A stretch of DNA of 41,454 nt from a virus: the IMG/VR virus record IMGVR_UViG_3300037504_000709, positions 1 through 41,454 of that record. One strand, given 5' to 3'. The notes under the pieces are model-generated. The model did not search any database, was not told the origin of the DNA, and worked only from the letters and a program-made list of their open reading frames with translations. Positions 18,225 through 41,454 of the stretch are shown here, piece after piece. The translations under genes and the position numbers were made by a program. Position 1 is the first letter of the stretch. Each line of letters opens with the position of its first letter.

Positions 18225-20168
18225 TTAAATTGTATCATTTTTATCTAAATGTCTGAAGTTGTTAAACCAGGATTTATTCTGCGGTTTATCTTTGTGTGCC
18301 ATCACACGATTGTTGTTAGGCATTCCTCCTCCCATTGGAGGTCCTTGAGGATTCTGGTTTGTGTTTTCTAATTGCCTATTTCTTCTTATTAATTCTTGTG
18401 CCATTCCTTTAGTGTCTCTTTTTTGTAAATATTTTTGTATATATAATTCTGGACTAGACTGGAATAGCATTAAACGCAGTGTTCGCTCTTCTGGTTTAGT
18501 TACCTCTGTATCCTCAAAGAATGTTAAAGGATCAGTCATACCCATACGGGCTCGCTCATATGCTTCCCTTCTTTTTTGCATTTTATCTACAGAACTTGCT
18601 CCAACTTCAATCTCCATCCCGTCTTCTACATAATCATTGACTATATTGATATATAAATCATTTCCCTCTTCACCCAAAACTCGAACCATATGAGGTTTTT
18701 TATAGAAAAGCTTTATAAACTGAAGTGTCCACTCTGCCATCCATTCACTAGCCTGATTTATAGTATCATCAACCATATCATCAATCACACCAAAATCCTG
18801 CTCCCTCATCATCTGTCTTGCACCCAAAGTTTCATCACCAGCCTCTCTAGTGCCTCGAGTTGTGGCATTGAGTGCTAACATTTCAAAAGCTATTGATCTA
18901 TCAATGTTTTTTGCACTATACAATTGACTTGGTGCAGGAGGACTTGAAATATAACTATAAACATCTCTGATATTACCATCAACGACAATAGCTTGATCTG
19001 GATCATTATAATCTGTTGATTCTATTGTTTCTTTTTTGATAGCCTGAGTATTAAATACGTGTTTACCCCTACTTCTAGCATTCATCTCATGGATTTGTCT
19101 GCCTTCAATATTAATATTATCCTGAAGCTCTAATACTTGTTCGTAATTTGTAGTTTCATCAACTGGTTTATCCCAATTTTGATATGTCATGATAAAATAT
19201 GGTTTTCTTGGATCTTTAAAGAAATTTTGAAATTCTTTATTTCTAACTAAATTCTGATCATTTCCACCAAACATCTTTTCAAAAAACTCTACGTCGCTAA
19301 TTTCTTTTTTCTTTCCTAAGTGATCATATTTAAAATAATGAGGTTCACCTTCAAAATCAAAATAAGGATTTTTAATTTTTTCCAAAACCAACGAATCAAG
19401 CATCCACAATACACCACTGATTTTTTCAAATTGTTCATCTTCTACTTCCTTGTAATAATCAAACCAAACTTCTTGACAATCAACTAAATTTTGATAAAAA
19501 TCTTCCTTTTTAGTATCGCCACCCTCAACAAAGCCTAATTCTTCCAAAATTTGTGTTTTCTTTTTAGGAAACATCATAATCAGCTTATGAACTGACAGTT
19601 TTTTCTTTTCTGCCAAAAAGCTCATCTTATCTGCATTCGGGGTTTCTACAAAAGGATCAAGCAAAATATTTTTAGGAGACACATTCACAAACTCATAATT
19701 GCCATTTGCTCCCAACTCTGGATTCCACCTGGCTTTGATAACTGCATAAAAACTAGCAGGACGCTGAACGTATGCTTTGCCTAAAATGTTTTTTCTCTCT
19801 CTTTTGCTAAAATCTCTCTCTATTAGACGAGTTAAAGCCTTAGCATTTTCTGGATTTGCTTGAACGTTCCCAGGTTTGATAATGATATCTGGAATTCTGC
19901 TGACTGCTATTGCTTTATTTCTTACATGCGTTTCCCACAGAATATTTTCTTTATACGGCATTTGATATGATCTTAGATTTTTAGGTAATTGATCACCAAA
20001 GAGATAGGCTTCTAGTTTTTCTTGCCTTTCTCTTAAATCAAATTTAGCCCACTCATTTTGAGCCTGGGCTATCCTATCATACACAAATTTGCCTAATTCA
20101 TAATCGGGTATCTCTAAACGAATGGGGGATAAATCTCTTGGATCATTGTTGGAATTATAATCTTTCAT
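18225..20168 (-). CDS. Portal protein, 647 aa
   Basis: Size, acidic/aromatic composition and the sequence of motifs fit portals of large podovirus/siphovirus type: an N-terminal clip region (YLFGDQLPKNLRSYQMPYKEN), central QNWDKPVDETTNYEQVLELQDNIN segment in part, and a helical crown with ARQMMREQDFGVIDDMVDDT. The C-terminus is Asn/Gln/Gly rich and disordered. It follows TerL and the zinc-ribbon gene. TATAAT (20181-20176) ends 7 nt before the ATG and no ribosome site is seen. Confidence 0.85.
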   Translation of the reverse strand: MKDYNSNNDPRDLSPIRLEIPDYELGKFVYDRIAQAQNEWAKFDLRERQEKLEAYLFGDQLPKNLRSYQMPYKENILWETHVRNKAIAVSRIPDIIIKPGNVQANPENAKALTRLIERDFSKRERKNILGKAYVQRPASFYAVIKARWNPELGANGNYEFVNVSPKNILLDPFVETPNADKMSFLAEKKKLSVHKLIMMFPKKKTQILEELGFVEGGDTKKEDFYQNLVDCQEVWFDYYKEVEDEQFEKISGVLWMLDSLVLEKIKNPYFDFEGEPHYFKYDHLGKKKEISDVEFFEKMFGGNDQNLVRNKEFQNFFKDPRKPYFIMTYQNWDKPVDETTNYEQVLELQDNINIEGRQIHEMNARSRGKHVFNTQAIKKETIESTDYNDPDQAIVVDGNIRDVYSYISSPPAPSQLYSAKNIDRSIAFEMLALNATTRGTREAGDETLGARQMMREQDFGVIDDMVDDTINQASEWMAEWTLQFIKLFYKKPHMVRVLGEEGNDLYINIVNDYVEDGMEIEVGASSVDKMQKRREAYERARMGMTDPLTFFEDTEVTKPEERTLRLMLFQSSPELYIQKYLQKRDTKGMAQELIRRNRQLENTNQNPQGPPMGGGMPNNNRVMAHKDKPQNKSWFNNFRHLDKNDTI

Positions 20169-20175
20169 AACTACA

Positions 20176-20183
20176 ATTATATA
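20176..20183 (-). promoter_or_regulatory. TATAAT box directly before the portal ATG
   Basis: Minus-strand TATAAT overlaps the stop codon of the zinc-ribbon gene; the sequence TATAATTGTAGTTATG closely resembles TATAATTGCAGTATG before TerL. A transcript starting here would be leaderless. No good -35 is evident. Confidence 0.4.
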
Positions 20184-20419
20184 CTAAAGAAATGATAAAT
20201 TGCACCACAATTTTTATTTGAACACTTAATACTCATGGGCATAGCAAATGGCTGCATTCCAGGAAGTATTGCTATTACCCTTCTGGTGTGCATACAAATA
20301 GGATTTCTACAATACGGGCAAAAAAATTTAGTTGACCTATCTTGATCTTGCAAGAATACAGATACATGTCTATCTTTAATTCCATGCGTTTCTCTATACT
20401 TTTTATTAGTTTGAGTCAT
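20177..20419 (-). CDS. Zinc-ribbon protein, 80 aa
   Basis: Two metal-binding knuckles are visible: FFCPYCRNPIC and KCSNKNCGAIY. Its ATG overlaps the TerL stop (ATGA), so it is translationally coupled to TerL. Small zinc proteins between terminase and portal occur in several phages; a role as a nucleic-acid-binding packaging accessory is inferred. Confidence 0.7.
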   Translation of the reverse strand: MTQTNKKYRETHGIKDRHVSVFLQDQDRSTKFFCPYCRNPICMHTRRVIAILPGMQPFAMPMSIKCSNKNCGAIYHFFSI

Positions 20420-23400
20420 AATGTTCTCCAGTCTGATGATTTTTTTCTTAATCTTTTAGCACTAAAACCTTCAGGATCAATTGTAAACTTATCAGATTTT
20501 TCATCAAAATTTGTAATACGTTTTACCTTACTTGATCCAGTACCAAATTTATAACTACCAGGAGCTACATTAATGTATTTTACACGGCTGAGAAGATAAA
20601 CACTTGAATCGTAAGCGTGATCCTCTCCTGTGGTATCTACTAGATCAACACGGTGTTCATCATATCCAAGCATAGGAATAGTTCTAATCCAATTAGTACA
20701 AGTATTAGTAACTAGCAAGTAAGGCAAGCCATCTGGTCCCATAGATAACCAATTATGCATCCTAGCTACATTAGCCAACCTGTTATTGTTGCCTTTAGTG
20801 ATATTTACCCTAATATTGTGTGTACCAAACCTCTTTCTCATGATATCTGCAATAGAAATACTGCTATCCGATCTGGAGTTATGCATAGCAGGATCAGTAA
20901 TAACTTTACTCAAAGGAATATCATTACTAACCAAAAATTCACTAATTATATCCACCCATTCATCTGGTGTTTTTTGATTACCATAAAACTCTTTATAAAA
21001 AATCACACGATTAAAATCATCTCCAGCATCAGTAACTTGCGGTATAATTGCCACCAAGTAAGCTGCGAACGCACTATTCTTTGAATATCCCCAGTCCATA
21101 CACAATAAATGCGTAAAACTTCTTGAAGGTATTACAGGATCTATCACGTGTTTGTCTCTATTGAATTCTCCAAAAACCTGACCTTGAAACACATCCCAAT
21201 CTCCAAACCTCCAGGCTTTATAAGTCTGAGGATCTGTCTCTTTTAACATCTCTATGTTGTGAACGTAACCTGGATCAGTTTTTATTAATTTTGGATTATC
21301 ATCCATGGTAGCGTGGATAAACACACGACATCTCTTGTAAGTCTTACCCAAGACCTTAAACTCCTCACAAAAGGGTTCTCCCCATGGACCTACATCAATA
21401 AACCTTTTTTTGACCCAGGAATTACCACTCAAGAACACAGTTCCGTTTTGTCTTAAATAGAATCTATGAACATCTTTTATTCCTAAACAATAAACCCAAC
21501 CTTTAAAATATTTCTTTTTAATATTTTTTTTCTCTATCCATCCCAATTTATTTTCTTTAAAAGAAACATCATAAGAAAGACCAATTCTGTTTTTTCTTTG
21601 TCTACTAGATAAATAGATTCTAAAACCTAATTTTAAACCTATTTCACACATATCATCTGCTAATTGTTTTGAAATAGTATAATAATGATTTTTATGACCG
21701 TCTCCCATCATAATGGTTTTATAAAAAAGTTTTAATTGTTGTTTAGTAGCATTTTTAATAATTTGTGGTACATATTTATCTCTTGCTTTTCCAAATTTAC
21801 TAAGAAATCCAACCCAAGAACGTGAATAAATAACACAATTAACTCCATTCCAGTTGTAATGAAAACCAATTCTTTTTAATAGTTTACTAATTTTAATTCT
21901 ATTCTTTTTCTTGGCTTGTGCAATTGAAAAACTTCCAGTTTTTTGACTAAAAGAACCTTCTGCCAAATACCATCCCATAAGCTCGCAAAAATCATCTCCC
22001 TTTAATTTTAAAGGTTGAGGATACTTTTTCTTTCTTGATTCTTGATACTCTACATCAAACTCGTTTACGTGTTTCCCCTTCCACAAACCAATTTTAGGTA
22101 ATCTAGTAACCTTATTTAAATTTTTAACCTTTATTAAACTGGGGGGATGAAAAGTGCGTTCTGATTTATTTTTAGTTTCTGTTACCCTTACAATTTTATG
22201 ATTAGGAGTGCATTCAAATCTAGCAGACCAATTATCTGATTTATATAAAAAACCCTCATACCACTCTTTAATTGTTTGATCTACTTTTCTAAAACAAGTT
22301 TCACCATCAACATCAGTTAAACACAAATCTCCTTCTTTTATTTTAGAAATATCTTTCCAACCATCTGGTGTTAATACCTCCCCTCCAGGTACACAGTGAC
22401 CTGTGCCACCAGGGTTAGTGGTAGCAAAAACCCTAGGCTCTAAATCTTTTATGGTTGATCTACAACTAGACAGAATCCTTAAATAATCTCTTTCTCTTGG
22501 AATTTGTGTTAGCTCTTCTACTAAAATACGCTGATACTCATGACCCTGGTATTTAGTATAAGAATCAGAATCTGCCAGGTGTCCAGTTCTGAAAATACAT
22601 CCTGACGGTCCTATAAACTCAGGAGGGTTGCCACGCTTATTAAATCCAAGGCGTGAATACATCCTCCAGGCTCTGTCTATCCAGTCTTCTAAATCTGTTG
22701 AATTACGTCTCAAAATTAACGCTCGCAAATCCGGGTTATGTGACTCACGAAGCAACCAAGCTATTCCTGCATCGGTATTGTGAGTTACTGTGTAATCATT
22801 TGTTAAATATAACCCATCTTTTTTTTCTACTCTAATACAAACACATTCTTTTTTTTCTTTTACTTTTATACTTTTTATTCTCTTTCCTAAGAGACTTATC
22901 CCGCCATTATATGGTTTCATTCTTTTTCTTTTTCTTTTTAATCTAAAGGGAATAATTTCATTATTAAATCGTATATAAAGACGAAATCTATATCCATTAA
23001 AGCAAAGTTTAGAATATCCACCAAGAGATAGAACTAATTCTCTTACTCCTTGGGCTAAATCCTTACTAATACTTGTGTATTCCATGTGTCCTCTTTTATC
23101 TATATACCCATCTGTATCCATCAACCCTTGCAGAATACCCAATCTAACTTCAGATGTATTATATATGTATTCTTTTGGTATAAATTTGGTAGCACTTTTA
23201 CTTCCTTTTAAACCTAAATCTTTTAATTTTCCAAAAAGAGAATCTTTATGAGCCACAAATCTTCCATAAGAATCTCTCCTGGCAGAATGTCCCATCCCAA
23301 TAGAATAATCACAACCTTGTTTAAATCTAACTTTTAATCCAATAGATTTAAAAAAGTCTAGAATCTCTTTGTCTTTAGTACTAAATTTAACACTCCGTTT

Positions 23401-23898
23401 TGCTATATACCCATCACCCAAAATTAACCCTAATAAATAAGGATCCATCAATACTTCTCTTTTTTTATATTCAACAGGAAAGGTGAGCGGCACATAAGCA
23501 AAAACACCCCTAGTAGAATCTAAAATATCTAGAATTTTTTTTGTACAATAAATGCCATCTTGCCTTTTGGTATTACTAAAATGAATCCACCACAAATGAT
23601 CAAAAGTACTCTCTACAACACTACCATCATTAAAGACAATCTCACAAACCTGTTTCTTTCCTTGAGGATAAATCCCAGTAACCCTAGTGTTTCCACCAGT
23701 AGGACTGCAAACACAATCGCCTACTTTTAATTCTCCTATCTTTTTTTTACCAGAAGGCGTAATCACAATTGAATCTAAGGGTTGTGCTTTGCCTCCACCC
23801 CTAGCTCCACCATATAAAACCTCAAACTCAGTACGCTTTAAAGCCTCAGTCTGTGCCCCAGGATGGGGTTTCCACAATACTTCTCTTTTCTTGCTCAT
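20416..23898 (-). CDS. terL: Terminase large subunit with two inteins, 1160-aa precursor
   Basis: ATP-driven DNA packaging motor and nuclease. Exteins are residues 1-37, 375-501 and 827-1160, giving a 498-residue mature protein. Walker A is GGARGGGK-T, split by intein 1 between K37 and T375; Walker B is RILVEEL (457-463); the coupling motif ATTNPGGTGH is followed by intein 2 at H501/S827. The nuclease carries CMDWGYSK (D935), VITDPAMHN (D1002) and GEDHAYDSSVY (D1093, D1097). Without splicing neither ATPase motif is assembled, so packaging depends on both splicing events. No Shine-Dalgarno is present; an extended -10 TGTTATAAT ends 6 nt before the ATG. Confidence 0.95.
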   Translation of the reverse strand: MSKKREVLWKPHPGAQTEALKRTEFEVLYGGARGGGKAQPLDSIVITPSGKKKIGELKVGDCVCSPTGGNTRVTGIYPQGKKQVCEIVFNDGSVVESTFDHLWWIHFSNTKRQDGIYCTKKILDILDSTRGVFAYVPLTFPVEYKKREVLMDPYLLGLILGDGYIAKRSVKFSTKDKEILDFFKSIGLKVRFKQGCDYSIGMGHSARRDSYGRFVAHKDSLFGKLKDLGLKGSKSATKFIPKEYIYNTSEVRLGILQGLMDTDGYIDKRGHMEYTSISKDLAQGVRELVLSLGGYSKLCFNGYRFRLYIRFNNEIIPFRLKRKRKRMKPYNGGISLLGKRIKSIKVKEKKECVCIRVEKKDGLYLTNDYTVTHNTDAGIAWLLRESHNPDLRALILRRNSTDLEDWIDRAWRMYSRLGFNKRGNPPEFIGPSGCIFRTGHLADSDSYTKYQGHEYQRILVEELTQIPRERDYLRILSSCRSTIKDLEPRVFATTNPGGTGHCVPGGEVLTPDGWKDISKIKEGDLCLTDVDGETCFRKVDQTIKEWYEGFLYKSDNWSARFECTPNHKIVRVTETKNKSERTFHPPSLIKVKNLNKVTRLPKIGLWKGKHVNEFDVEYQESRKKKYPQPLKLKGDDFCELMGWYLAEGSFSQKTGSFSIAQAKKKNRIKISKLLKRIGFHYNWNGVNCVIYSRSWVGFLSKFGKARDKYVPQIIKNATKQQLKLFYKTIMMGDGHKNHYYTISKQLADDMCEIGLKLGFRIYLSSRQRKNRIGLSYDVSFKENKLGWIEKKNIKKKYFKGWVYCLGIKDVHRFYLRQNGTVFLSGNSWVKKRFIDVGPWGEPFCEEFKVLGKTYKRCRVFIHATMDDNPKLIKTDPGYVHNIEMLKETDPQTYKAWRFGDWDVFQGQVFGEFNRDKHVIDPVIPSRSFTHLLCMDWGYSKNSAFAAYLVAIIPQVTDAGDDFNRVIFYKEFYGNQKTPDEWVDIISEFLVSNDIPLSKVITDPAMHNSRSDSSISIADIMRKRFGTHNIRVNITKGNNNRLANVARMHNWLSMGPDGLPYLLVTNTCTNWIRTIPMLGYDEHRVDLVDTTGEDHAYDSSVYLLSRVKYINVAPGSYKFGTGSSKVKRITNFDEKSDKFTIDPEGFSAKRLRKKSSDWRTL
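21421..22395 (-). mobile_element. Intein 2 of TerL with LAGLIDADG endonuclease (325 aa)
   Basis: Residues 502-826 of the precursor. It starts with Cys (CVPGGEVLTPDGWKDI), has a block-B ECTPNHKIV (T564, H567), and ends VFLSGN before Ser827. The usual penultimate His is Gly. LAGLIDADG motifs are LMGWYLAEGSF (640-650) and FYKTIMMGDGHK (725-736), both with their acidic residue, so homing activity may persist. The insertion site, after NPGGTGH, is a conserved terminase ATPase motif. Confidence 0.92.
22777..23787 (-). mobile_element. Intein 1 of TerL with LAGLIDADG endonuclease (337 aa)
   Basis: Residues 38-374. It begins with Ala (AQPLDSIVITPSG), carries a block-B like STFDHLWWI (T98, H101) and ends NDYTVTHN before Thr375. 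An Ala1 start belongs to the non-canonical intein class that bypasses the first acyl shift. LAGLIDADG motifs are YLLGLILGDGYI and LGILQGLMDTDGYI, with both catalytic Asp residues. It splits Walker A between Lys and Thr. Confidence 0.93.
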
Positions 23899-23904
23899 AC
23901 TGCA

Positions 23905-23913
23905 ATTATAACA
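23905..23913 (-). promoter_or_regulatory. Extended -10 promoter of terL, probably leaderless transcript
   Basis: TG-T-TATAAT reads on the minus strand with the box ending 6 nt before the ATG. No ribosome site lies between. No convincing -35 is present at 17 nt; hairpin 1 of the first 46-nt unit occupies that region, so regulation by a protein or structure there is plausible. Confidence 0.55.
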
Positions 23914-23915
23914 AA

Positions 23916-24053
23916 TGTGTTAGCCTTTAGCTAACAACCTATTTAGACTAAGTTTAGATATTGTGCCAACCTTTGGTTGGCAATCTGATTAGATATAATC
24001 TAATCATTGTGTCAATTTTTAATTGACAACCTATTTAGACTTAGTCTAAACAT
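23916..24053. repeat. Three tandem 46-nt double-hairpin units
   Basis: Units at 23916, 23962 and 24008, each exactly 46 nt and opening TGTG. Hairpin A: GTTAGCC-TTT-AGCTAAC, GCCAACC-TTT-GGTTGGC, GTCAATT-TTT-AATTGAC. Hairpin B: ATTTAGAC-TAA-GTTTAGAT, GATTAGAT-ATA-ATCTAATC, TTTAGAC-TTA-GTCTAAA. Arms differ between units yet still pair, with one mismatch and two wobbles in unit 1. Every loop is three nucleotides. Confidence 0.85.
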
Positions 24054-24060
24054 TGTGATA

Positions 24061-24500
24061 AAATAAACCTACCTGGTGATAACAATAGAGCAAGGGGAAC
24101 TCTTGGGATTATCGAGGAATAACTCATACCTCAATAAAAAAGACAGAATCCCAAATAATTCCCAAACACTTATCTGGTGCTAGATGATATACAAATAGCA
24201 TCTAACACAAAAAAAGAAAGCTAGAAAAAACCAGTCTAGAGACTCTTACTTTTTTTAAGAAAAATACTAAAGGGGGTTGCCTCTTTTATCTAACACAATC
24301 AAATGCAAACCCCATCTATTTGTATGTACAAGATTAAGGGCGATTGTGTCTAAATTACATTTAGACAATCTGTCAGTCAAAGACTGACATTACCCTTAAA
24401 TTGTGAAATCCTGATAGATTAGCAGTACTAACTATCACTTTCACAGTTGGAGAGAGAAAACTCCTGCAGACTTGAAAATCCCTCAATATTAAGGGTGTTC
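24061..24500 (+). ncRNA. Highly structured non-coding region, candidate RNA
   Basis: No open reading frame is supported here. Complementary segments nest extensively: TTGGGATT 24103-24110 with AATCCCAA 24147-24154, enclosing GAGG/CCTC; TAGATG 24181 with CATCTA 24199; GGGGTTGC 24273-24280 with GCAAACCCC 24305-24313 (one bulge); TAAGGG 24335 with CCCTTA 24393 around a 46-nt unit; TGTGAAA 24402 with TTTCACA 24439 around GATAG/CTATC. The loop at 24189-24198 (ATACAAATAG) is fully complementary to 24316-24325. Unpaired bases are A-rich on the plus strand, suggesting that strand, but a promoter and terminator were not identified. Confidence 0.45.
24345..24390. repeat. Fourth 46-nt double-hairpin unit, inverted
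   Basis: GTCTAAAT-TAC-ATTTAGAC and GTCAGTC-AAA-GACTGAC. Read on the minus strand the order is the 7-bp TTT-loop hairpin followed by the 8-bp hairpin, as in the tandem units, so this copy is inverted relative to them. It is preceded by ATTAAGGGCGAT. Confidence 0.75.
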
Positions 24501-24546
24501 TGTGCTAAATTTTAATTGGCAATGTGTCAATTTTTAATTGAACGAT
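24501..24546. repeat. Fifth 46-nt unit, degenerate
   Basis: It opens TGTG and holds two TTT-loop hairpins: GCTAAAT-TTT-AATTGGC (one mismatch, one wobble) and TCAATT-TTT-AATTGA. It is preceded by ATTAAGGGTGTTC, matching the flank of the fourth unit. Confidence 0.65.
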
Positions 24547-24550
24547 TGGG

Positions 24551-24670
24551 GAAAATTAAGAAGCGGTTCAAACTTAGGAAAAATTAGGAAGGCGGGCAAA
24601 AGAAGCAGGATCAAAAACTAGAGAAAATTAAAAAGCGGGGTCAAAAAATACAGAAAATTAAAAAGCGGGG
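24551..24670. repeat. Four imperfect A-rich direct repeats ending in GCGGG
   Basis: GAAAATTAAGAAGCGG (24551), GAAAAATTAGGAAGGCGGG (24578), and two copies of GAAAATTAAAAAGCGGGG (24623, 24653). Spacings are 27, 45 and 30 bp. They resemble iteron-like protein-binding sites and lie between the hairpin array and terS, where a packaging initiation (pac) site recognised by TerS could be. Confidence 0.6.
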
Positions 24671-24919
24671 TATGGGACCCATTTTATTAGGTACCATCCT
24701 AACCCCTTCTCACCTAAGAAAACTCTTCTTTAGAAAAATCTATCGCTTTGTCCAATTGGCTACTAGCCACAGGAAAATAAGCCTTATAAAAAATATATAT
24801 ACATATATATATAAAGGAAAAAACATACATCCTCTTTGAGTTTGCCCCATTGACCGGGAAAAACAGCAGTATCAAGTGTTTTGGTCCATTGGGTAAGAAT
24901 TTTGATCAAAATTTAAAGT
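24671..24919. other. Non-coding, AT-rich segment upstream of the repeats
   Basis: It contains a possible long stem GGGGTATGG/CCAT..ACCCC (24667-24705), an alternating TA tract around 24788-24813 and the perfect palindrome AATTTTGATCAAAATT near 24899. No gene is supported. It would be the 3-prime region of the terS transcript. Confidence 0.4.
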
Positions 24920-25381
24920 TTAGCCCTTTGATCCATTATTTTCATCAGGCAGAGGTATAACATAATCAACATTCTGATTGGTGTTGACATTGTGCGTAGT
25001 TTCCACCATTTTGTGGTTGACGTTAAGCATAAATTTACTCATCGAAGAGGAAAAATCCTTGGTCAGTCCGTTGTTGATGATTAGCTCTTTTTGAATTTGT
25101 TGCAGGTATGAAATTGCTTTGCCGAATTGAAGGTACTTGTCTCGCCACCTATACATTGTAGCCTCGTCATGCCCCAAGTAGTTTGCAAGCCCAGCAATCG
25201 TTGGAACTTTGTTTTTTTCTTTTCTCTCCACAACAAAATCGACTGCTTTTTTAGGATAATCATCCTTATATTCAGGCTTTTTCCCAGCAAGACAAGCGTA
25301 TTTACTCGTCCTATTTTCCTTGATGTTGTCGAGGAGTTTTTTGGTTTTTTTTATTTTTCTCTTTTTCTTTTTTTTTGCCAT
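24920..25381 (-). CDS. terS: Terminase small subunit, P22 gp3-like, 153 aa
   Basis: DNA-recognition subunit of the packaging motor. After a very basic N-terminus (MAKKKKKRKIKKTKK) comes an HTH-like region VPTIAGLANYLGHDEATMYR, then the family-typical LIINNGLTKDFSSSMSKFML and NVNHKMVE oligomerisation segment, and an acidic tail. Length matches the family. It is separated from terL by 1 kb of non-coding repeats, which is unusual. No Shine-Dalgarno precedes the ATG. Confidence 0.88.
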   Translation of the reverse strand: MAKKKKKRKIKKTKKLLDNIKENRTSKYACLAGKKPEYKDDYPKKAVDFVVERKEKNKVPTIAGLANYLGHDEATMYRWRDKYLQFGKAISYLQQIQKELIINNGLTKDFSSSMSKFMLNVNHKMVETTHNVNTNQNVDYVIPLPDENNGSKG

Positions 25382-27488: not shown

Positions 27489-27498
27489 CTAGCAGTTT

Positions 27499-27580
27499 CA
27501 AGATACACTATACATATATTGAAAATACACTACATACATATATTCAAGATACACTATGTACATATTGAATACATATTCTT
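27499..27580. repeat. Three and a half direct repeats of about 23 bp
   Basis: ATACACTATACATATATTG, ATACACTACATACATATATT and ATACACTATGTACATATTG start at 27503, 27525 and 27549, with a partial ATACATATTC at 27570. Period 22-24 bp. They sit just upstream of the accessory-operon promoter and beside an AT-rich, low-melting region: operator array or origin iterons. Confidence 0.7.
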
Positions 27581-27787
27581 GTAATTTTTGCAAGAAAAAA
27601 CCAACTACAAACAGTGAAAATTTCAAAAATTATTTAAAAATACCCCCGCGCGCGTGTGTGTAAACGCTTGCTAACACAGTTGGTGATAAAACTTTTACTC
27701 TTTTTTCTTTTAAATCTTTGAAATTTTAGATAACTTGTTGAAACTTTTTCTTGATATATATATATATTTGGCGGGCAAACACACGGG
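27568..27787. other. Non-coding region with alternating purine-pyrimidine tract
   Basis: No gene is supported. It holds CGCGCGCGTGTGTGT at about 27646-27661, unusual in this AT-rich genome and able to adopt left-handed DNA, ACCAACT (27600) complementary to AGTTGGT (27679), and an alternating TA tract. Together with the direct repeats this is one of the two best origin candidates. Confidence 0.4.
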
Positions 27788-28150
27788 TTACTTGGTCTTT
27801 TCTAGATTATCCCAGTTCTCAATGTCCCCCTTCCACACATTCTTTGCTTTCTTGACCTCTTTTTGTGTGAGTTTTCCATCCTCAACCATCCTTTCTGTTT
27901 GTGTAGGATACAGCTTAGCGTATTCACGAGAGAACTCATTACCCCTAAATGGCTGCAGGAGGCTCTTAGCGTACTTATTTCGTGATTTTTTTATACTTTC
28001 TGGTATATACTCCTTCACTGAACCTAAATCGTTAAAATGAGCCCCACAGCCCCATCCATCCACTATTCCCTTTTTTGTCCTCCATCTTTTGTGCCTCCAG
28101 GATTCATGTTCGTGTTCCTTCCCACAAACACAGCAATACATTTTTTTCAT
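27788..28150 (-). CDS. Zinc-binding accessory protein, 120 aa
   Basis: I choose ATG 28150 (MKKMYCCVCGKEHEHE). CCVC, nearby His residues and WGCGAHF form a probable zinc site; the C-terminal half has YPTQTERMVEDGKLTQKEVK, a helical segment. TATAAT ends 7 nt before the ATG and no Shine-Dalgarno exists, so the mRNA may be leaderless. An upstream three-arm switch lies at 28229-28265. Function unknown. Confidence 0.65.
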   Translation of the reverse strand: MKKMYCCVCGKEHEHESWRHKRWRTKKGIVDGWGCGAHFNDLGSVKEYIPESIKKSRNKYAKSLLQPFRGNEFSREYAKLYPTQTERMVEDGKLTQKEVKKAKNVWKGDIENWDNLEKTK

Positions 28151-28157
28151 ATAAACC

Positions 28158-28166
28158 ATTATAACA
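28158..28166 (-). promoter_or_regulatory. Extended -10 promoter TGTTATAAT
   Basis: The minus-strand box is identical to that of terL, including the preceding TTT. A -35 TTGTAC at 18 nt is possible. Two AGTACTTGTTTTG direct repeats (about 28186-28212) lie immediately upstream and could be operators. Confidence 0.55.
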
Positions 28167-28228
28167 AACAAACAAAACAAAGTACAAAACAAGTACTTAC
28201 AAAACAAGTACTAAGGGAGCAAAAAAAA

Positions 28229-28265
28229 GACCGCCGGGAGGCGGTCGTCTTTTTTTGCGACCGCC
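28229..28265. terminator. Three-arm terminator / anti-terminator switch
   Basis: Arm A GACCGCC (28229-28235), arm B GGCGGTCG (28240-28247), arm C CGACCGCC (28258-28265). A:B is a strong terminator with T-runs in both directions (TCTTTTTTT plus, TTTTTTTT minus); B:C is an alternative 8-bp hairpin excluding it. On the minus strand a promoter lies just upstream at 28274-28302. Confidence 0.75.
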
Positions 28266-28316
28266 CTTATAATATTATAGACTTCATATATATTTCGTCT
28301 AATAATATTATATAAG
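28266..28316. repeat. AT-rich 51-bp imperfect palindrome
   Basis: CTTATAATATTATAGAC is nearly complementary to GTCTAATAATATTATATAAG around a 14-nt spacer. It sits in the divergent intergenic region between leftward accessory and rightward early genes and also contains a minus-strand promoter. It is a candidate origin or operator. Confidence 0.65.
28274..28302 (-). promoter_or_regulatory. Promoter TTAGAC-17-TATAAT feeding the three-arm switch
   Basis: Minus-strand TTAGAC (28302-28297) and TATAAT (28279-28274), 17-nt spacer. Transcripts would begin near 28267 and immediately contain arms C, B and A, ending at the T-run unless terminated late or antiterminated. Confidence 0.55.
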
Positions 28317-28433
28317 CCTGGTTGAATTGAGACTAATGTTATCAAATAGTTTTTTAATGTTATACAAAATAATGGATTATTCTTGGGGTCTAACTCTGGT
28401 TTTTTAATATTGGTGTTTATTTTACTAATAGTA

Positions 28434-28462
28434 TTGACTTATAAGCACTGATGTGGTTTAAT
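28434..28462 (+). promoter_or_regulatory. Rightward early promoter, TTGACT-17-TTTAAT
   Basis: TTGACT at 28434-28439, TTTAAT at 28457-28462 with TGG extended -10, 31 nt before the first early ATG. It would drive the replication genes with host sigma-70-type polymerase. Confidence 0.7.
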
Positions 28463-28492
28463 CTTAATTAATTATCAACAAAAAAAGGAAAT

Positions 28493-28810
28493 ATGAAGTA
28501 CATTAAGGTATACACTTTTCTATTAAATTCTGACATAGAATTGTCAACGGCAGAGAAGATGTTACTATCAATTATTTTGAGCCAATATGAATTTAAAGGC
28601 TTTTGTGATTGGTCTAATAAGAGGTTTGCTGATTGTTTAGGTTTTTCAGCAGCCTATATCTCAAGAATGGTTAATCATTTAAAAGTTGAAAACTTTATCA
28701 AAGAAATTAACAAAAAATATATTAGAAGAGCTTTAGCTCCAACCACTGAATTTTTAAATTTAGAAGTATATAAAGAAGCTAGGAGTTTTAAGAAAAGAAA
28801 GGTAGAATGA
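28493..28810 (+). CDS. Winged-helix replication/regulatory protein, 105 aa
   Basis: First early gene, with AAAGGAAAT before the ATG. Residues about 20-75 (LSTAEKMLLSIILSQ, then NKRFADCLGFSAAYISRMVN) form a winged-helix domain like those in phage replication initiators and MarR-type regulators; no ATPase domain follows. It overlaps the next gene by 4 nt (ATGA). Origin binding or early regulation is inferred. Confidence 0.7.
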   Translation: MKYIKVYTFLLNSDIELSTAEKMLLSIILSQYEFKGFCDWSNKRFADCLGFSAAYISRMVNHLKVENFIKEINKKYIRRALAPTTEFLNLEVYKEARSFKKRKVE

Positions 28811-29106: not shown

Positions 29107-30921
29107 ATGAATAATATTATAACAGAAAAAATCAACCAAGTCAAACTCGAGAACGTTCCCCAAGTACTAAAGTCAAAAAAACAATGGATATTGTGGAAAT
29201 ATAAATTGATAGGTGACAAGCTAACAAAAATACCCATCAATCCTAAGACTTTGAAAAACGCTAGCACCACAGATCCTTCTAGTTGGACCTCATTTGATTT
29301 TTGCATTACTAAATTAAGCGGTAAGTTTGGGCTAGGCTTTGTGTTTGCTGGCAAAACGGTTGGAATAGACATTGATCATGTTTTTGAGAATGAAACGAGC
29401 TTTAAGGTAGATCAAATCTTGAGTAGGTTTTCTAACACATACATTGAATATTCCCCATCTGGTTTGGGGTTTCATATTTTCTGTGTTGGCAAGAAAACCA
29501 CTGATAGATGCAAGAATACTAAGTTTGATTTTGAATACTATGACCAAAAAAGATTTTTTACATTTACAGGAAATTGGTATACCAAATCATCAAGATCAGT
29601 TACAGCTTGCAGTGAGGCTTTAGCTTGGTTTGAAAAGACTTATTTTAAGGAAAAGACAAAAACGAACACAAACATTGCTACCTCACCTACTCTCACCAAT
29701 CACACGATCCTAAACAAAGCCTTTAAGGCTACTAATGGTGCTAAAATCAAACGTTTGTATGAAGGTGATACATCTAATTATGCTTCTAGAAGCGAAGCTG
29801 ATTTAGCACTAGCTAGCTTGCTTGCTTTCTATACGCAGGATAGGACAACACTCAAACAATTGATGTGTGGAAGTGGGTTGAATAGACCTAAATTTAAAAG
29901 AGATGATTATATGGATAGCACAATAACAAAGGCTATAGAATCTTTAACAGAGACATATTCTGATCGACAAAGGGTAACCCCATTTGAGTTTGAGAGTAAT
30001 AGTTTTTCTGCTTTAATCAAAAAACAAAGGAAAGAGGCTAACAAACCACCATTTCTGTGTGGATACAGTGAAATTGATGAGGTTTTAAATGGGTTTCGCT
30101 ATAGAAACCTTTATTTAGTTTCAGGTTTAGAAAAATCAGGTAAATCAGCATTTTTGATGAACATGTTAAATCAAAAACTTAACTCAGATAATAGGATTTT
30201 GTTTATTAACACGGAACTGCCAGCGATTGAGTTTGCTACACGAATGACCAGTTATGATTTAGGTTTACCCGAAGAGGAGATAACAGACAGACAGGTTGAT
30301 TTTTGGGTTGAGAAAAACATTAGTAAATTTGAATACATTGGGGTTGAGGATTTGATTAAACTGGATGATCCAATGCTCTTGCTTGAGCTAATTAAAAAAA
30401 AGATAGAAAACATAGATGCAATTGTGTTTGATAATATAACCAGTTTAGCTTCAGCTGTTTTTCAGGTTGGTAAAGAAGACTATCAGGTAACTGCTCACTT
30501 TATGGATGAGTTGGGGAAAATTACTAAAACACATCAGGTAGTTAGTTTTGTAGTGCTTCATGCTAAAAACTCAATCAGGGTCAGCAGTAATTTGAGATTT
30601 AAAAAAGCGTGGATAGAAAATCCTTGGGGAATTATTGATAAAAAATTCAATTACATCAAAGATCCTACTACTGCTGATATCTATGGTGGTGGACAGATGC
30701 TATCTCAAGCATCAGGCATCATCTTTGTTTGGAGACCTTTTCAAGATTATCAGGATCAAAAAATGAGTAGTGTGGCTATCATTAAGCTAATGAGCATGCG
30801 ACATGCAAAAACCACCAATTCTAAGGTGTGTTTTAATTTTGATTTGAATACTGGTAAATTCAAAATTAATAAAAAGAAGGAAAATGATCGAATGTTAGAC
30901 AAATTAAAGCGTGAAGCATAA
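29107..30921 (+). CDS. Primase-polymerase fused to DnaB-type helicase, 604 aa
   Basis: N-terminal archaeo-eukaryotic primase (PrimPol) domain: KKQWILWKY and KIPINP entry motifs, catalytic GIDIDH (D88, D90), SPSGLGFH (118-123) and FEYYDQKRFFTFTG (142-155). C-terminal RecA-like helicase: Walker A SGLEKSGKSA (about 338-347), FINTELP, Walker B IDAIVFDN (about 435-443), VVLHAKN and a late QASGIIFVWRP. This one protein would prime and unwind phage DNA. No DNA polymerase gene is present, so elongation uses the host enzyme unless the PrimPol domain contributes. Confidence 0.85.
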   Translation: MNNIITEKINQVKLENVPQVLKSKKQWILWKYKLIGDKLTKIPINPKTLKNASTTDPSSWTSFDFCITKLSGKFGLGFVFAGKTVGIDIDHVFENETSFKVDQILSRFSNTYIEYSPSGLGFHIFCVGKKTTDRCKNTKFDFEYYDQKRFFTFTGNWYTKSSRSVTACSEALAWFEKTYFKEKTKTNTNIATSPTLTNHTILNKAFKATNGAKIKRLYEGDTSNYASRSEADLALASLLAFYTQDRTTLKQLMCGSGLNRPKFKRDDYMDSTITKAIESLTETYSDRQRVTPFEFESNSFSALIKKQRKEANKPPFLCGYSEIDEVLNGFRYRNLYLVSGLEKSGKSAFLMNMLNQKLNSDNRILFINTELPAIEFATRMTSYDLGLPEEEITDRQVDFWVEKNISKFEYIGVEDLIKLDDPMLLLELIKKKIENIDAIVFDNITSLASAVFQVGKEDYQVTAHFMDELGKITKTHQVVSFVVLHAKNSIRVSSNLRFKKAWIENPWGIIDKKFNYIKDPTTADIYGGGQMLSQASGIIFVWRPFQDYQDQKMSSVAIIKLMSMRHAKTTNSKVCFNFDLNTGKFKINKKKENDRMLDKLKREA

Positions 30922-34483: not shown

Positions 34484-34962
34484 AAAACTTATCAACATCA
34501 GAAACATGGAATAAATTTAAAGAATTTAGAAGAAAAGGAAATAGAATGAACAAATATAAATTAACAAAAACACTATCAAAATATATAAGTAATAGCGATC
34601 AACTACTTGCTGTAGTTGAAGATATTTTAAATGAAAAAATTACATCATTGCCAACACCAGAAACTTGGGATAAATTTATCGAATACAGAGAAAATGGTAT
34701 ACCATGCAACATCCCAAGTGAAGAAATACAACTTGCTGCTGTTGAAAAGAAGAATTTGGCTATTAGATATATTCACAATCCAAGTGAAGAAGTACAAATT
34801 GCCGCTGTTAAAAAATATGGTTGTGCTATTAAATACATTCACAATCCAAGTGAAAAAGCACAACTTGCTGCTGTTGAAAAGAATTGTTTGGCTATTCAAT
34901 ACATTCACAACCCAAGCAAAAAAGTTAGAAAATTATTTGAAAGGAAATGTGAAAATAAGTAA
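34480..34962 (+). CDS. 22-residue-repeat protein 1, 160 aa (3 repeats)
   Basis: Start ATG has GAAGGAGAAAT. Residues 1-22 (STSETWNKFKEFRRKG) look like the remnant of another copy; residues 23-47 are the LTKTLSKY motif; then TPETWDKFIEYRENG and three 22-aa repeats of the form IHNPSEEVQIAAVKKYGCAI, capped by NPSKKVRKLFERK. The repeats are HEAT/DUF4116-like helical hairpins, suggesting a protein-binding solenoid. Confidence 0.7.
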   Translation: MKNLSTSETWNKFKEFRRKGNRMNKYKLTKTLSKYISNSDQLLAVVEDILNEKITSLPTPETWDKFIEYRENGIPCNIPSEEIQLAAVEKKNLAIRYIHNPSEEVQIAAVKKYGCAIKYIHNPSEKAQLAAVEKNCLAIQYIHNPSKKVRKLFERKCENK

Positions 34963-35407
34963 AACACTACCAACACCAGAAACATGGGAAGAGTTTATAA
35001 AGTATAGAAAAAATGGTATACCATGCAACGACCCAAGTGAGGAAATACAACTTGCTGTTGTTAAAAAAGGTAGTTGGTCTATTCATTACATTCACAATCC
35101 AGGTGAGAAAGTACAGTTAGCAGCAGTTAAACGGAGTGGTTTAGCTATTGAATACATTAACAATCCAAGTAAGAAAGTACAATTAGCAGCTGTTAAACAG
35201 AGTAGTTTAGCTATTGAACACATTAATAACCCAAGTGAAGAAGTACAGTTAGCAGCTGTTAAAAAATATGGTTGGAATATTCAATATATCCACAATCCAA
35301 GTGAAAAAGTACAAATTGCTGCTGTTAAACAAAGAAGACAGGCCATTCAACATATCCACAATCCCAGTAAGAAAGTTAGAGAGTTATTTGAAAAGGAAAT
35401 AGAATGA
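34949..35407 (+). CDS. 22-residue-repeat protein 2, 152 aa (5 repeats), GTG start
   Basis: GTG at 34949 follows GAAAGGAAAT and overlaps the previous gene. It lacks the LTKTLSKY motif but starts at the TPETWEEFIKYRKNG motif, then has five 22-aa repeats and the NPSKKVRELFEKE cap. A longer open frame upstream is the shadow of gene 1 repeats and is not expected to be used. Confidence 0.65.
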   Translation: MKISKTLPTPETWEEFIKYRKNGIPCNDPSEEIQLAVVKKGSWSIHYIHNPGEKVQLAAVKRSGLAIEYINNPSKKVQLAAVKQSSLAIEHINNPSEEVQLAAVKKYGWNIQYIHNPSEKVQIAAVKQRRQAIQHIHNPSKKVRELFEKEIE

Positions 35408-36141
35408 ACAAACATAAATTAACAAAAACACTATCAAAATATTTAAAATACAATTTTGAATTACTAAAAGTAGTTAAAGATATTTTAAATGGAAAAACCA
35501 CATCATTGCCAACACCTAAAACTTGGGATAAATTTAAAGAATTTAGAAAGAAAGGAATAGCTTGCAACAATCCAAGTGAAGAAATACAACTTGCTGCTGT
35601 TAAAGAAAGTGGTTTTTCTATTCATTACATTCACAATCCAAGTGAGGAAATTCAGATTGCTGCTGTTCAAAAATATGGTTGTGCTATTCATTGCATTCAC
35701 AATCCAAGTGAAAAAGTACAACTTGTTGCTGTTAAAAAAAATGGTTTGGCTATTAGATATATTCACAATCCAAGTGAAGAAGTACAACTTAATGCTGTTC
35801 AAAATAATGGTTCAGTTATCCAATATATAAACAACCCTAGTGAAGAAGTGCAACTTAATGCTGTTAGACAAGATGTTTTGGCTATTAGATATATTCACAA
35901 TCCAAGTGAAAAAGTACAACTTGCTGCTGTTAAAAAAGGTGGTTGGGCTCTTGATTATATTCACAATCCAAGTGAGGAAATACAACTAGCAGCAGTTAAA
36001 CAGAGTGGTTCGTCTATTGTACACATTCACAATCCAAGTGAGGAAATGCAACTTGCTGCTGTTAAACAAAACAGACAGGCTATTCAATATATCCACAACC
36101 CAAGTAAGAAAGTTAGAAAGTTATTTGAAGGAAAAATATGA
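35404..36141 (+). CDS. 22-residue-repeat protein 3, 245 aa (8 repeats)
   Basis: Full architecture: LTKTLSKYLKYNFELLKVVKDIL, TPKTWDKFKEFRKKG, eight IHNPSEEVQLAAVKKxG-type repeats, and the NPSKKVRKLFEGK cap. Its start AGGAAATAGAATGAACAAA is the same as the internal start of gene 1. The family has expanded by tandem duplication, with repeat number 3, 5 and 8. Likely a decoy or binding scaffold for host factors. Confidence 0.7.
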   Translation: MNKHKLTKTLSKYLKYNFELLKVVKDILNGKTTSLPTPKTWDKFKEFRKKGIACNNPSEEIQLAAVKESGFSIHYIHNPSEEIQIAAVQKYGCAIHCIHNPSEKVQLVAVKKNGLAIRYIHNPSEEVQLNAVQNNGSVIQYINNPSEEVQLNAVRQDVLAIRYIHNPSEKVQLAAVKKGGWALDYIHNPSEEIQLAAVKQSGSSIVHIHNPSEEMQLAAVKQNRQAIQYIHNPSKKVRKLFEGKI

Positions 36142-37768: not shown

Positions 37769-38053
37769 TTATTTATACATTTTAGTTTTTGGAGTCAAAT
37801 TAATGATTCTTTTTGCTCCGTGAATGTTTTCTTGATCTATAAATCTTTCAATATAGTCTTTTCTATCAAGATTTTTTATATATCTTGTGATAGAAGAATC
37901 AGACATGTCAAGCACACTTTCAAATTCAGCATTTGTTGATGTACAAAACCCATCATCTAGATTAGCCATAATTAAACTCAAAATCATTAATTCTTGAAAA
38001 TTTAAATCACCATTTTGAAGTATTGTTAAATCAACCTTTATATTAGTCTTCAT
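37769..38053 (-). CDS. Winged-helix protein, 94 aa
   Basis: NFQELMILSLIMANLDDGFC, then NAEFESVLDMSDSSITRYIK and DRKDYIERF form a winged helix resembling that of 28493-28810. ATG at 38053 follows AGGGATTGATC and overlaps the previous gene. Possibly an early/late switch protein. Confidence 0.7.
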   Translation of the reverse strand: MKTNIKVDLTILQNGDLNFQELMILSLIMANLDDGFCTSTNAEFESVLDMSDSSITRYIKNLDRKDYIERFIDQENIHGAKRIINLTPKTKMYK

Positions 38054-38294
38054 GATCAATCCCTAAATCAAAATCTGTATCAATTGCTTGATGACCATCA
38101 AAAAGTGTGTTTTCTTCTACTTTTTTCATACTCAGCCAAACCAAATAATTAAGGGCTGCACCAAAGATAAGTGATAATTCAACACTTGTGTTAGCTAGGT
38201 ATTTAGCTAAAAATGAAGAGAGTCCATTGATCAAAAGGTAAAAAATCACCTTAAAATGCTTATTATTATTAAAAAACAAGAGTAGTTTTGTCAT
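38043..38294 (-). CDS. Holin-like membrane protein, 83 aa
   Basis: ATG at 38294 overlaps the upstream stop (ATGA); the longer frame to 38345 is not favoured. Two hydrophobic stretches, FKVIFYLLINGLSSFLAKYL and VELSLIFGAALNYLVWLSM, precede an acidic tail. Position after the endolysin supports a holin or GtrA-like membrane protein. Confidence 0.65.
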   Translation of the reverse strand: MTKLLLFFNNNKHFKVIFYLLINGLSSFLAKYLANTSVELSLIFGAALNYLVWLSMKKVEENTLFDGHQAIDTDFDLGIDHED

Positions 38295-40162: not shown

Positions 40163-41454
40163 TCAAATTGCACTAAAATCTACTAATGTAGTTGTTTTAG
40201 TATTACCTCCTGCTGTTATTTTCATCATAATATCCCCATCATTACCTGATCCTGTTCCATCAGATTGCCAAATAACATGACTGCCTTCATCAGGATCACT
40301 TGGATCTGCTGATAGCTCTCTTCTGGTCACCGCACCGTTCACATCTAACCTAGTATCAGGCTCCGTCGTCCCGATGCCGACGTTGCCGCCGTTTAGCCAA
40401 CTGTCTGAATCCGAAGCTATTCTTATATTCTCAGTCTCGTTAGTATCATATATTGACAGTGCTCCGTCTCCGTCTAGATTTTCAACTACTTTAAATAATT
40501 GTTGATCGGCTGATGATTGTTCTATGAATAATACACGAGTGTTTGTAGACGGTGATTTTATATGGAATTTGTAATCAGGCTCCGTTGTCCCGATGCCGAC
40601 GTTGCCTGATGTATCTATAACCATCCTTTGAGACGGCGAGAAAGTATTTCCATCTGTTAAAGAATCATCAGTTTTGAAATATATTTCTCCATTAGTTAAG
40701 CTTATCTGCGATGATTCTGTTGACCTAGCATACCAGCTTCCAGACGAGTATTCACTCCCACTTGAAATTAATAATTGATTATCTGTTGTTGATGTAAAGT
40801 ATCCTCCTTCATTATCAGCTTCTCCAATATGCAAAGCAGAATTTGTTGTTGTGTCTGTTACAATGTCTAATTTATTTCCTGGCTCCGTCGTCCCGATGCC
40901 GACGTTGCCGTCTTTGTCTATTACCATTCCATATCCAAAAGCTCCATTTTTGGACACGTTAAAGATAAGCTTCCCACTATCATCTGCCCCGTCTCTTTCA
41001 GCGCCGATGTAAGCGATATCGTCTCCACCTGCGTCATCTTCTATTGCAAAGAGAAAAACACCTCCAAAACCATCACTCATATTGCTATCTTTAGTTACCT
41101 TCAATCGCTGTGTTCCATATATAATGTCGCTATCAACCCCATCCCGCTCCACAGTCATTACTGACGGATTAGAACCTACAACATGTAATGGTGCACTCGG
41201 CTCCGTTGTCCCGATGCCGACCTGTCCACCGTCCTCCACAAAGATTCCATTACCGCCATCTTCGTACAGTTTCAGGCCAGCACCATCTCTTGCTCTTATC
41301 TCATCTGCTTCTATTCTATAACCATCGCCTATGTCCCAGTTAGCAGAAAGAGAAACTGTCCCGTCTGCGTTGATGTATGTTTCATCCATTGCTCCGTTAG
41401 GTATGCCTGTAAAGTTTGTACCGTCAAATGTTGGGCTGGAACCACTTGTCACGT
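40163..41454 (-). CDS. Tail fibre protein, C-terminal part (start at 322 across the join)
   Basis: Joined protein is about 498 residues. The body has four to five VGIGTTEP repeats (trimeric beta shaft with L-x-V-x-G flanks) and ends in ITAGGNTKTTTLVDFSAI without a chaperone domain. The repeat codons are GC-rich (GTCGGCATCGGGAC type) within an AT-rich genome. The segment LSANWDIGDGYRIEADEIRA matches the 12121 fibre. Receptor binding is inferred. Confidence 0.8.
   Translation of the reverse strand, partial: VTSGSSPTFDGTNFTGIPNGAMDETYINADGTVSLSANWDIGDGYRIEADEIRARDGAGLKLYEDGGNGIFVEDGGQVGIGTTEPSAPLHVVGSNPSVMTVERDGVDSDIIYGTQRLKVTKDSNMSDGFGGVFLFAIEDDAGGDDIAYIGAERDGADDSGKLIFNVSKNGAFGYGMVIDKDGNVGIGTTEPGNKLDIVTDTTTNSALHIGEADNEGGYFTSTTDNQLLISSGSEYSSGSWYARSTESSQISLTNGEIYFKTDDSLTDGNTFSPSQRMVIDTSGNVGIGTTEPDYKFHIKSPSTNTRVLFIEQSSADQQLFKVVENLDGDGALSIYDTNETENIRIASDSDSWLNGGNVGIGTTEPDTRLDVNGAVTRRELSADPSDPDEGSHVIWQSDGTGSGNDGDIMMKITAGGNTKTTTLVDFSAI
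40359..41220. repeat. Four 22-29 bp GC-rich repeats inside the fibre gene
   Basis: Copies at 40359, 40578, 40881 and 41199 share GGCTCCGTYGTCCCGATGCC and encode VGIGTTEP. Their nucleotide identity exceeds what the protein repeat requires, so recombination or gene conversion between copies is likely. Confidence 0.85.
41338..41454. repeat. Terminal direct repeat, right copy
   Basis: Exact duplicate of 1-117; see left copy. The genome length after removing one copy is 41,337 bp. Confidence 0.95.

Follow-up and report, generated by a model that had tools for sequence, protein, structure and literature searches.

Alternating, covarying hairpins between terS and terL of a tailed-phage genome: a structure-conserved array with likeness to single-strand initiation sites

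Few DNA elements are known that are read by their structure. The early promoters of bacteriophage N4 are short hairpins with 3-nt loops. In the IncQ plasmid RSF1010, the hairpin of the single-strand initiation (ssi) site ssiA measures 21 nt and has a GTG 3 nt to its 3' side (PMC4434180), and in the pRN1 origin stem-loop the structure is kept and the sequence is not, a stem mutation being rescued by a compensating change (PMC4234260). GTG is also recognised by NrS-1-type primase-polymerases, NrSPol working best on GTGA or GTGG (PMC8718748), although the start sites of these enzymes in phage genomes have so far been poorly defined. Selfish double-hairpin elements are known from the mitochondria of fungi and of other organisms (PMC2800124, PMC10085805), and RepA_N-type iterons, for example repeat 3 of PLE, are semi-palindromic repeats that converge on an A/T tract (PMC7145576).

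The window that we analysed is a 41,454-nt virus record from IMG/VR. In the locus described here two kinds of hairpin alternate, A of 19 nt and B of 21 nt, both with 3-nt loops and separated by 3-nt linkers, so that one A-B unit measures 46 nt; this unit is present in three tandem copies, one inverted copy about 290 bp off and one degenerate remnant. Among known systems, and by likeness only, the array would appear to work most like an ssi site or a stem-loop origin. With RSF1010 ssiA/ssiB it shares a hairpin of ~21 nt with a GTG 3 nt 3' (each of the 21-nt hairpins B1-B3 is followed by TT+GTG, whereas no GTG follows the inverted B4), an AEP-type primase that bears a helix-bundle domain and is encoded in the same replicon (here at 29107-30921) and repeats that are iteron-like, as iterons are found in the RSF1010 origin; it differs in being a tandem string plus an inverted unit, RSF1010 having a single 40-nt site per strand, and in carrying both of its ATTGTGA sites on the same (+) strand. 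The origin stem-loop of the pRN1 family (ORF904 primase) is likewise conserved in structure and not in sequence and goes with a GTG and an AEP primase bearing a helix-bundle domain, but it is one stem-loop of ~100 nt beside the replication gene, whereas the present array has many hairpins of 19-21 nt, and the primase gene lies some 5 kb away. Mitochondrial DHE/RHE elements also consist of two adjacent hairpins, occur as tandem, inverted and degenerate copies and are intergenic, yet DHEs are dispersed over the genome, while here the units are regularly spaced within one 1-kb region of a phage. RepA_N-type iterons keep their sequence, whereas in the array pairing is kept, the sequence varies and two hairpin types alternate.

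The earlier note on this DNA had drawn an analogy to the hairpins used by the N4 virion polymerase. The array hairpins are similar in size and loop, but their stem sequences are not conserved and no gene starts at each of them. Moreover, an N4-type promoter was rejected because it calls for a virion RNA polymerase of ~3,500 residues, and the largest ORF in this genome, the assembly of which looks complete, encodes 1,313 aa. The array thus belongs to none of the families that were tested in full, the N4 promoters being set apart by the polymerase, the double-hairpin elements by their dispersal and Rfam by having no family match at gathering score. The earlier statement that no such element had been described holds for the layout as a whole, which we did not find described; mitochondrial double-hairpin elements, RSF1010 ssi and the pRN1 stem-loop are nevertheless partly similar, and they are described DNA elements whose structure is conserved.

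The genome and its noncoding region between terS and terL

The first and last 117 nt of the record are identical (1-117 and 41338-41454, an exact direct repeat), which makes it probable that the assembly is complete and circularly closed, at ~41.3 kb. An ORF crosses the junction of this end repeat. The genome encodes tailed-phage proteins, including a P22-like portal, a phage major head protein, TerS (24920-25381, - strand; P22 gp3-like packaging protein, PF16677, 1.2e-11) and TerL (20416-23898, - strand). In an annotated phage collection the portal found two matches only, at 22-26% identity: a Manatee Spring phage and a phage of TM7 (Saccharibacteria). The portal was also sought in 380 genomes of the phylum to which a Patescibacteria MAG belongs, with no match, and a host assignment finds no support there.

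Two intein-like inserts lie in frame within terL, the first immediately behind the Walker A GGGK, and match LAGLIDADG and intein-splicing families; with both removed, the protein has ~499 aa and is 52% identical to that of relative L003. Between terL and the portal, 20177-20419 (-) encodes a small four-cysteine, zinc-ribbon-like protein, the position of which is conserved in several relatives (L002, L003 and L005) and which matched no family convincingly. An Ogr/Delta-like activator, with TGT..ACA sites, was considered for this gene and found no family support.

The 1,021 bp separating terS and terL (23899-24919) are by far the largest intergenic gap of the genome, the next ones measuring 299-332 bp. 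Besides the array, the gap holds imperfect, iteron-like 30-nt direct repeats with a GAAAATTAARAAGCGG core (24551-24671, + strand) and an AT-rich stretch with 3 G/C in 40 positions (24784-24823), a candidate unwinding region judged by its AT content, which has counterparts elsewhere in the genome. Both lie downstream of the array on the + strand, and the block of 30-nt repeats adjoins terS.

Hairpin architecture and covariation between the units

On the + strand, from 23918, the order of hairpins is A1, B1, A2, B2, A3 and B3. A-type hairpins have 19 nt, 8 bp and a TTT loop (TGYYARYYTTTRRYTRRCA; consensus TGYYARYY-TTT-RRYTRRCA), and B-type hairpins have 21 nt and 9 bp (TRWYTARAYNWARTYTARWYA; consensus TRWYTARAY-NWA-RTYTARWYA). 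A1 (23918-23936) pairs TGTTAGC with GCTAACA, and B1 (23940-23960; TATTTAGAC-TAA-GTTTAGATA) contains two G.T pairs on the + strand and is followed by TTGTG. A2 (23964-23982) reads TGCCAACC-TTT-GGTTGGCA, B2 (23986-24006) reads TGATTAGAT-ATA-ATCTAATCA and is again followed by TTGTG, A3 (24010-24028) reads TGTCAATT-TTT-AATTGACA and B3 (24032-24052) reads TATTTAGAC-TTA-GTCTAAACA. Hairpin centres in this tandem block are 23 nt apart, and repeat analysis agreed with the earlier note that units 1-3 are in tandem at exactly 46 nt. The two hairpins that it had seen in each unit were also recovered, with the correction that they are not an arbitrary pair, one being always of A type and the other of B type; likewise, its 3-nt loops hold in general but not in A1, where a C-A mismatch at the loop opens it to 5 nt on the + strand. 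B3 can also cross-pair with B1, enclosing A2-B2-A3 as a cloverleaf; a tRNA-like cloverleaf was discarded, as ARAGORN found none.

The inverted unit consists of B4 (24347-24367, -, located by the covariance model) and A4 (24371-24389, -; TGTCAGTC-TTT-GACTGACA), and its orientation was borne out by the model, which scored 63.6 bits on the - strand against 26.8 on the +. An outer 7-bp stem (24334-24399), TTAAGGG (24334-24340) with CCCTTAA (24393-24399), encloses B4 and A4 in a three-way junction. The motif ATTGTGA ends both structured blocks, directly 3' of the tandem block at 24052-24058 and directly 3' of the unit-4 junction at 24400-24406, both copies on the + strand. Unit 5 (24500-24548, +) is degenerate, as had been proposed: it looks like two degenerate A hairpins (24503-24521 and 24525-24541) and matched the covariance model weakly (19.1 bits, E 0.045). 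Over the whole genome, the model found no copy outside 23915-24548.

The 1,021-bp region contains six stems that reach 7 bp or more and carry 3-nt loops, where 0.13 are expected, the maximum in 500 dinucleotide shuffles being 2. DNA folding of the tandem block (23905-24060) gave z = -8.5, and RNA folding of the whole array gave z values of -7.8 and -9.2 for the two strands. When units 1-3 and the reversed unit 4 were aligned, 97.1% of the cells were paired, two-sided changes were found at 10 of the 17 pairs (shuffle mean 5.2; 2 of 500 shuffles as high), and the covariation score was 0.627, compared with 0.328 in shuffles, none of the 500 reaching it, and with at most 0.196 in slid controls. 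Since the test compares repeat copies within one genome, what it measures is pairing kept between copies and not across species. At variable cells the two arms of a hairpin agreed in 19/20 cases (A) and 17/20 (B), whereas arms mixed between hairpins agreed in ~11 and 10.5; the variation is by transitions, except at one B column. Unit identity is roughly 60-75%, while lengths, loops and linkers stay fixed. The array is therefore a real element whose structure is conserved, and the earlier view that pairing rather than sequence is constrained was supported. Such covariation, seen here between repeat units of one double-stranded DNA phage genome, argues strongly for an element that is read by its structure.

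Occurrence in related phages

Relatives were gathered from IMG/VR with portal and terL baits; among other baits, TerS and the primase returned 0 relatives and the major capsid protein 1. The median terS-terL distance was near zero among 160 terL-bearing loci (our own included), most terL relatives having a small gap or none, and in those with 40-55% identical terL the two genes overlap or abut and no array is present. Large apparent gaps in L146, L147, L150 and L161, among the closest relatives, turned out to be coding when read; several more distant loci have gaps of 300-550 nt. No comparable hairpin cluster was seen in the relatives examined, and the best hit of the covariance model among them was a 17-bit chance match, in searches from which very close relatives were possibly left out. 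The earlier note had proposed that the 46-nt pattern be sought in viral contigs, and nothing beyond chance came of it there: when IMG/VR was scanned with patterns of the unit, the matches were of chance level only and lacked palindromes. Distant blastn against phages and plasmids found nothing meaningful, and an array covariance search of genomes of the Patescibacteria phylum, run with stricter filters and no positive control, found 0 of 380. Because most relatives have little or no gap, and no hairpin cluster or match to the model beyond chance was seen among them, the terS-terL region is probably specific to this lineage.

A candidate replication element and the rival explanations

The reading that we put first, with a probability of about 35%, is by analogy: the array would be an ssi- or origin-like landing site for the phage's own primase-polymerase. 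The gene at 29107-30921 (+) encodes an AEP primase-polymerase whose helix-bundle domain is of NrS-1 type and which is fused to a DnaB-type helicase (PF22763, 5.7e-13; NrS-1 structures, 5e-18), and is the proposed user. We favour this reading because of the primase type, its class's recognition of GTG, the parallels with ssiA and pRN1 and the TT+GTG placement. The array would be a structure-recognised DNA element forming part of a replication origin as a cluster of ssi sites. Once the region is opened, the exposed strand would fold into a string of 8-9-bp hairpins with 3-nt loops, the primase-polymerase/helicase would be positioned by a hairpin together with the GTG(A) that lies 2-3 nt beyond the 3' side of the B hairpin, and primer synthesis would start at that position; the 30-nt direct repeats could act as initiator-binding sites and the AT-rich stretch as the unwinding element. 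These repeats and that stretch share the largest noncoding gap of the genome with the array, and the gene at 28493-28810, not far away, codes for an O/DnaD-like replication initiation domain. Against an origin, the array was absent from all relatives searched and so is not general in these phages, and a rival candidate exists at 27489-28492, where triple 24-nt repeats adjoin replication genes. The ATTGTGA match was noticed post hoc, the motif being common genome-wide (20 copies) and its first copy inherited with the unit; the NrS-1 motif TTTGGTTA is not in the array and occurs elsewhere at chance frequency. GC skew tracks gene direction and was of no help in locating an origin. If the ssi/origin reading is true, the array would be a naturally occurring hairpin template for primase-polymerases of the NrS-1 type. 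It is possible, albeit doubtful, that it represents a new class of tailed-phage cis element in which alternating, covarying double hairpins of fixed geometry are read by shape in single-stranded or cruciform DNA and position either a primase-polymerase replisome or the packaging motor.

A packaging site (pac/cos), bound by TerS and cut by TerL, with hairpins or duplex palindromes and the 30-nt repeats forming a recognition complex, is rather unlikely: the position of the array exactly between terS and terL, the P22 gp3-like TerS, the direct-repeat block next to its gene and an end overlap of the assembly such as permuted or cohesive-end phages give would all suit it, but relatives with 40-55% identical terL and no array place the element outside the shared packaging machinery, and perfect arm pairing with changing sequence is unexpected of a duplex site read by sequence. 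Next in probability, and unlikely, comes a selfish or mutational repeat akin to the mitochondrial double-hairpin elements, that is, palindrome pairs that multiply and stay palindromic through correction by template switching, without a function for the phage. It would account for the two-hairpin unit, for copies in tandem, inverted and degenerate form within a noncoding insert specific to the lineage and for between-arm variation that is almost all transitions; nevertheless, no copy occurs elsewhere in the genome or in the relatives searched, and the absence of indels in loops, linkers and unit length despite 25-40% divergence suggests selection on geometry.

Control of terL has to be considered because of the promoter that sequence features predict there, although we regard it as improbable. 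The gene lacks a Shine-Dalgarno sequence, and an extended -10, TGTTATAAT (23905-23913, -), ends 6 nt before its ATG and fits a transcription start at the ATG itself; the start TATAATTGYAGT(T)ATG is common to terminase and portal. A TATAAT at -12 to -15 without a Shine-Dalgarno sequence is found at the genes at 23898, 20168 (portal), 12105 and 40119 (-), whereas most others have a Shine-Dalgarno sequence, and given the same layout at the last three, leaderless transcription of terL is likely. The array begins 20 bp upstream, and its hairpin A1 covers the -35 region; at about -20 to -155 the array could, bound by a regulator or extruded under supercoiling, control transcription of the terL operon. 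Yet the leaderless-type genes at 20168, 12105 and 40119 have no upstream hairpins, the 23-bp period corresponds to 2.2 helical turns and would not keep sites on one face, the inverted unit some 450 bp upstream fits poorly, and sites for a homodimer need not keep identical arms. The same predicted promoter leaves the array upstream of the terL transcript, which favours a role at the DNA level and counts against the least probable reading, a structured RNA, transcribed either as the 3' portion of terS mRNA or on its own as a noncoding RNA, with the hairpins serving for example as stability elements or as a protein decoy. Strong folding of both RNA strands and covariation of the kind found in structured RNAs speak for it, but Rfam has no such family, the promoter scan revealed none that would convincingly drive a dedicated RNA, and the departures from Watson-Crick pairing (G.U/A.C), counted from the sequence, split evenly between the strands and do not point to RNA on either one. 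The earlier note had judged a DNA element to be as likely as an RNA, and this was supported, a structure at the DNA level being no less likely than one in RNA.

Other repeats and small genes were noticed in the window. Three 24-nt tandem repeats (27497-27565), which lie within a gap (27489-27787) close to the divergent switch to the replication genes, are a rival origin or operator candidate. Two small winged-helix proteins (28493-28810, +, and 37769-38059, -) resemble the N-terminal domain of phage replication initiators, and long 66-nt tandem repeats at 34714-36113 encode repeated 'NPSEEIQLAAVK..' motifs in adjacent ORFs.
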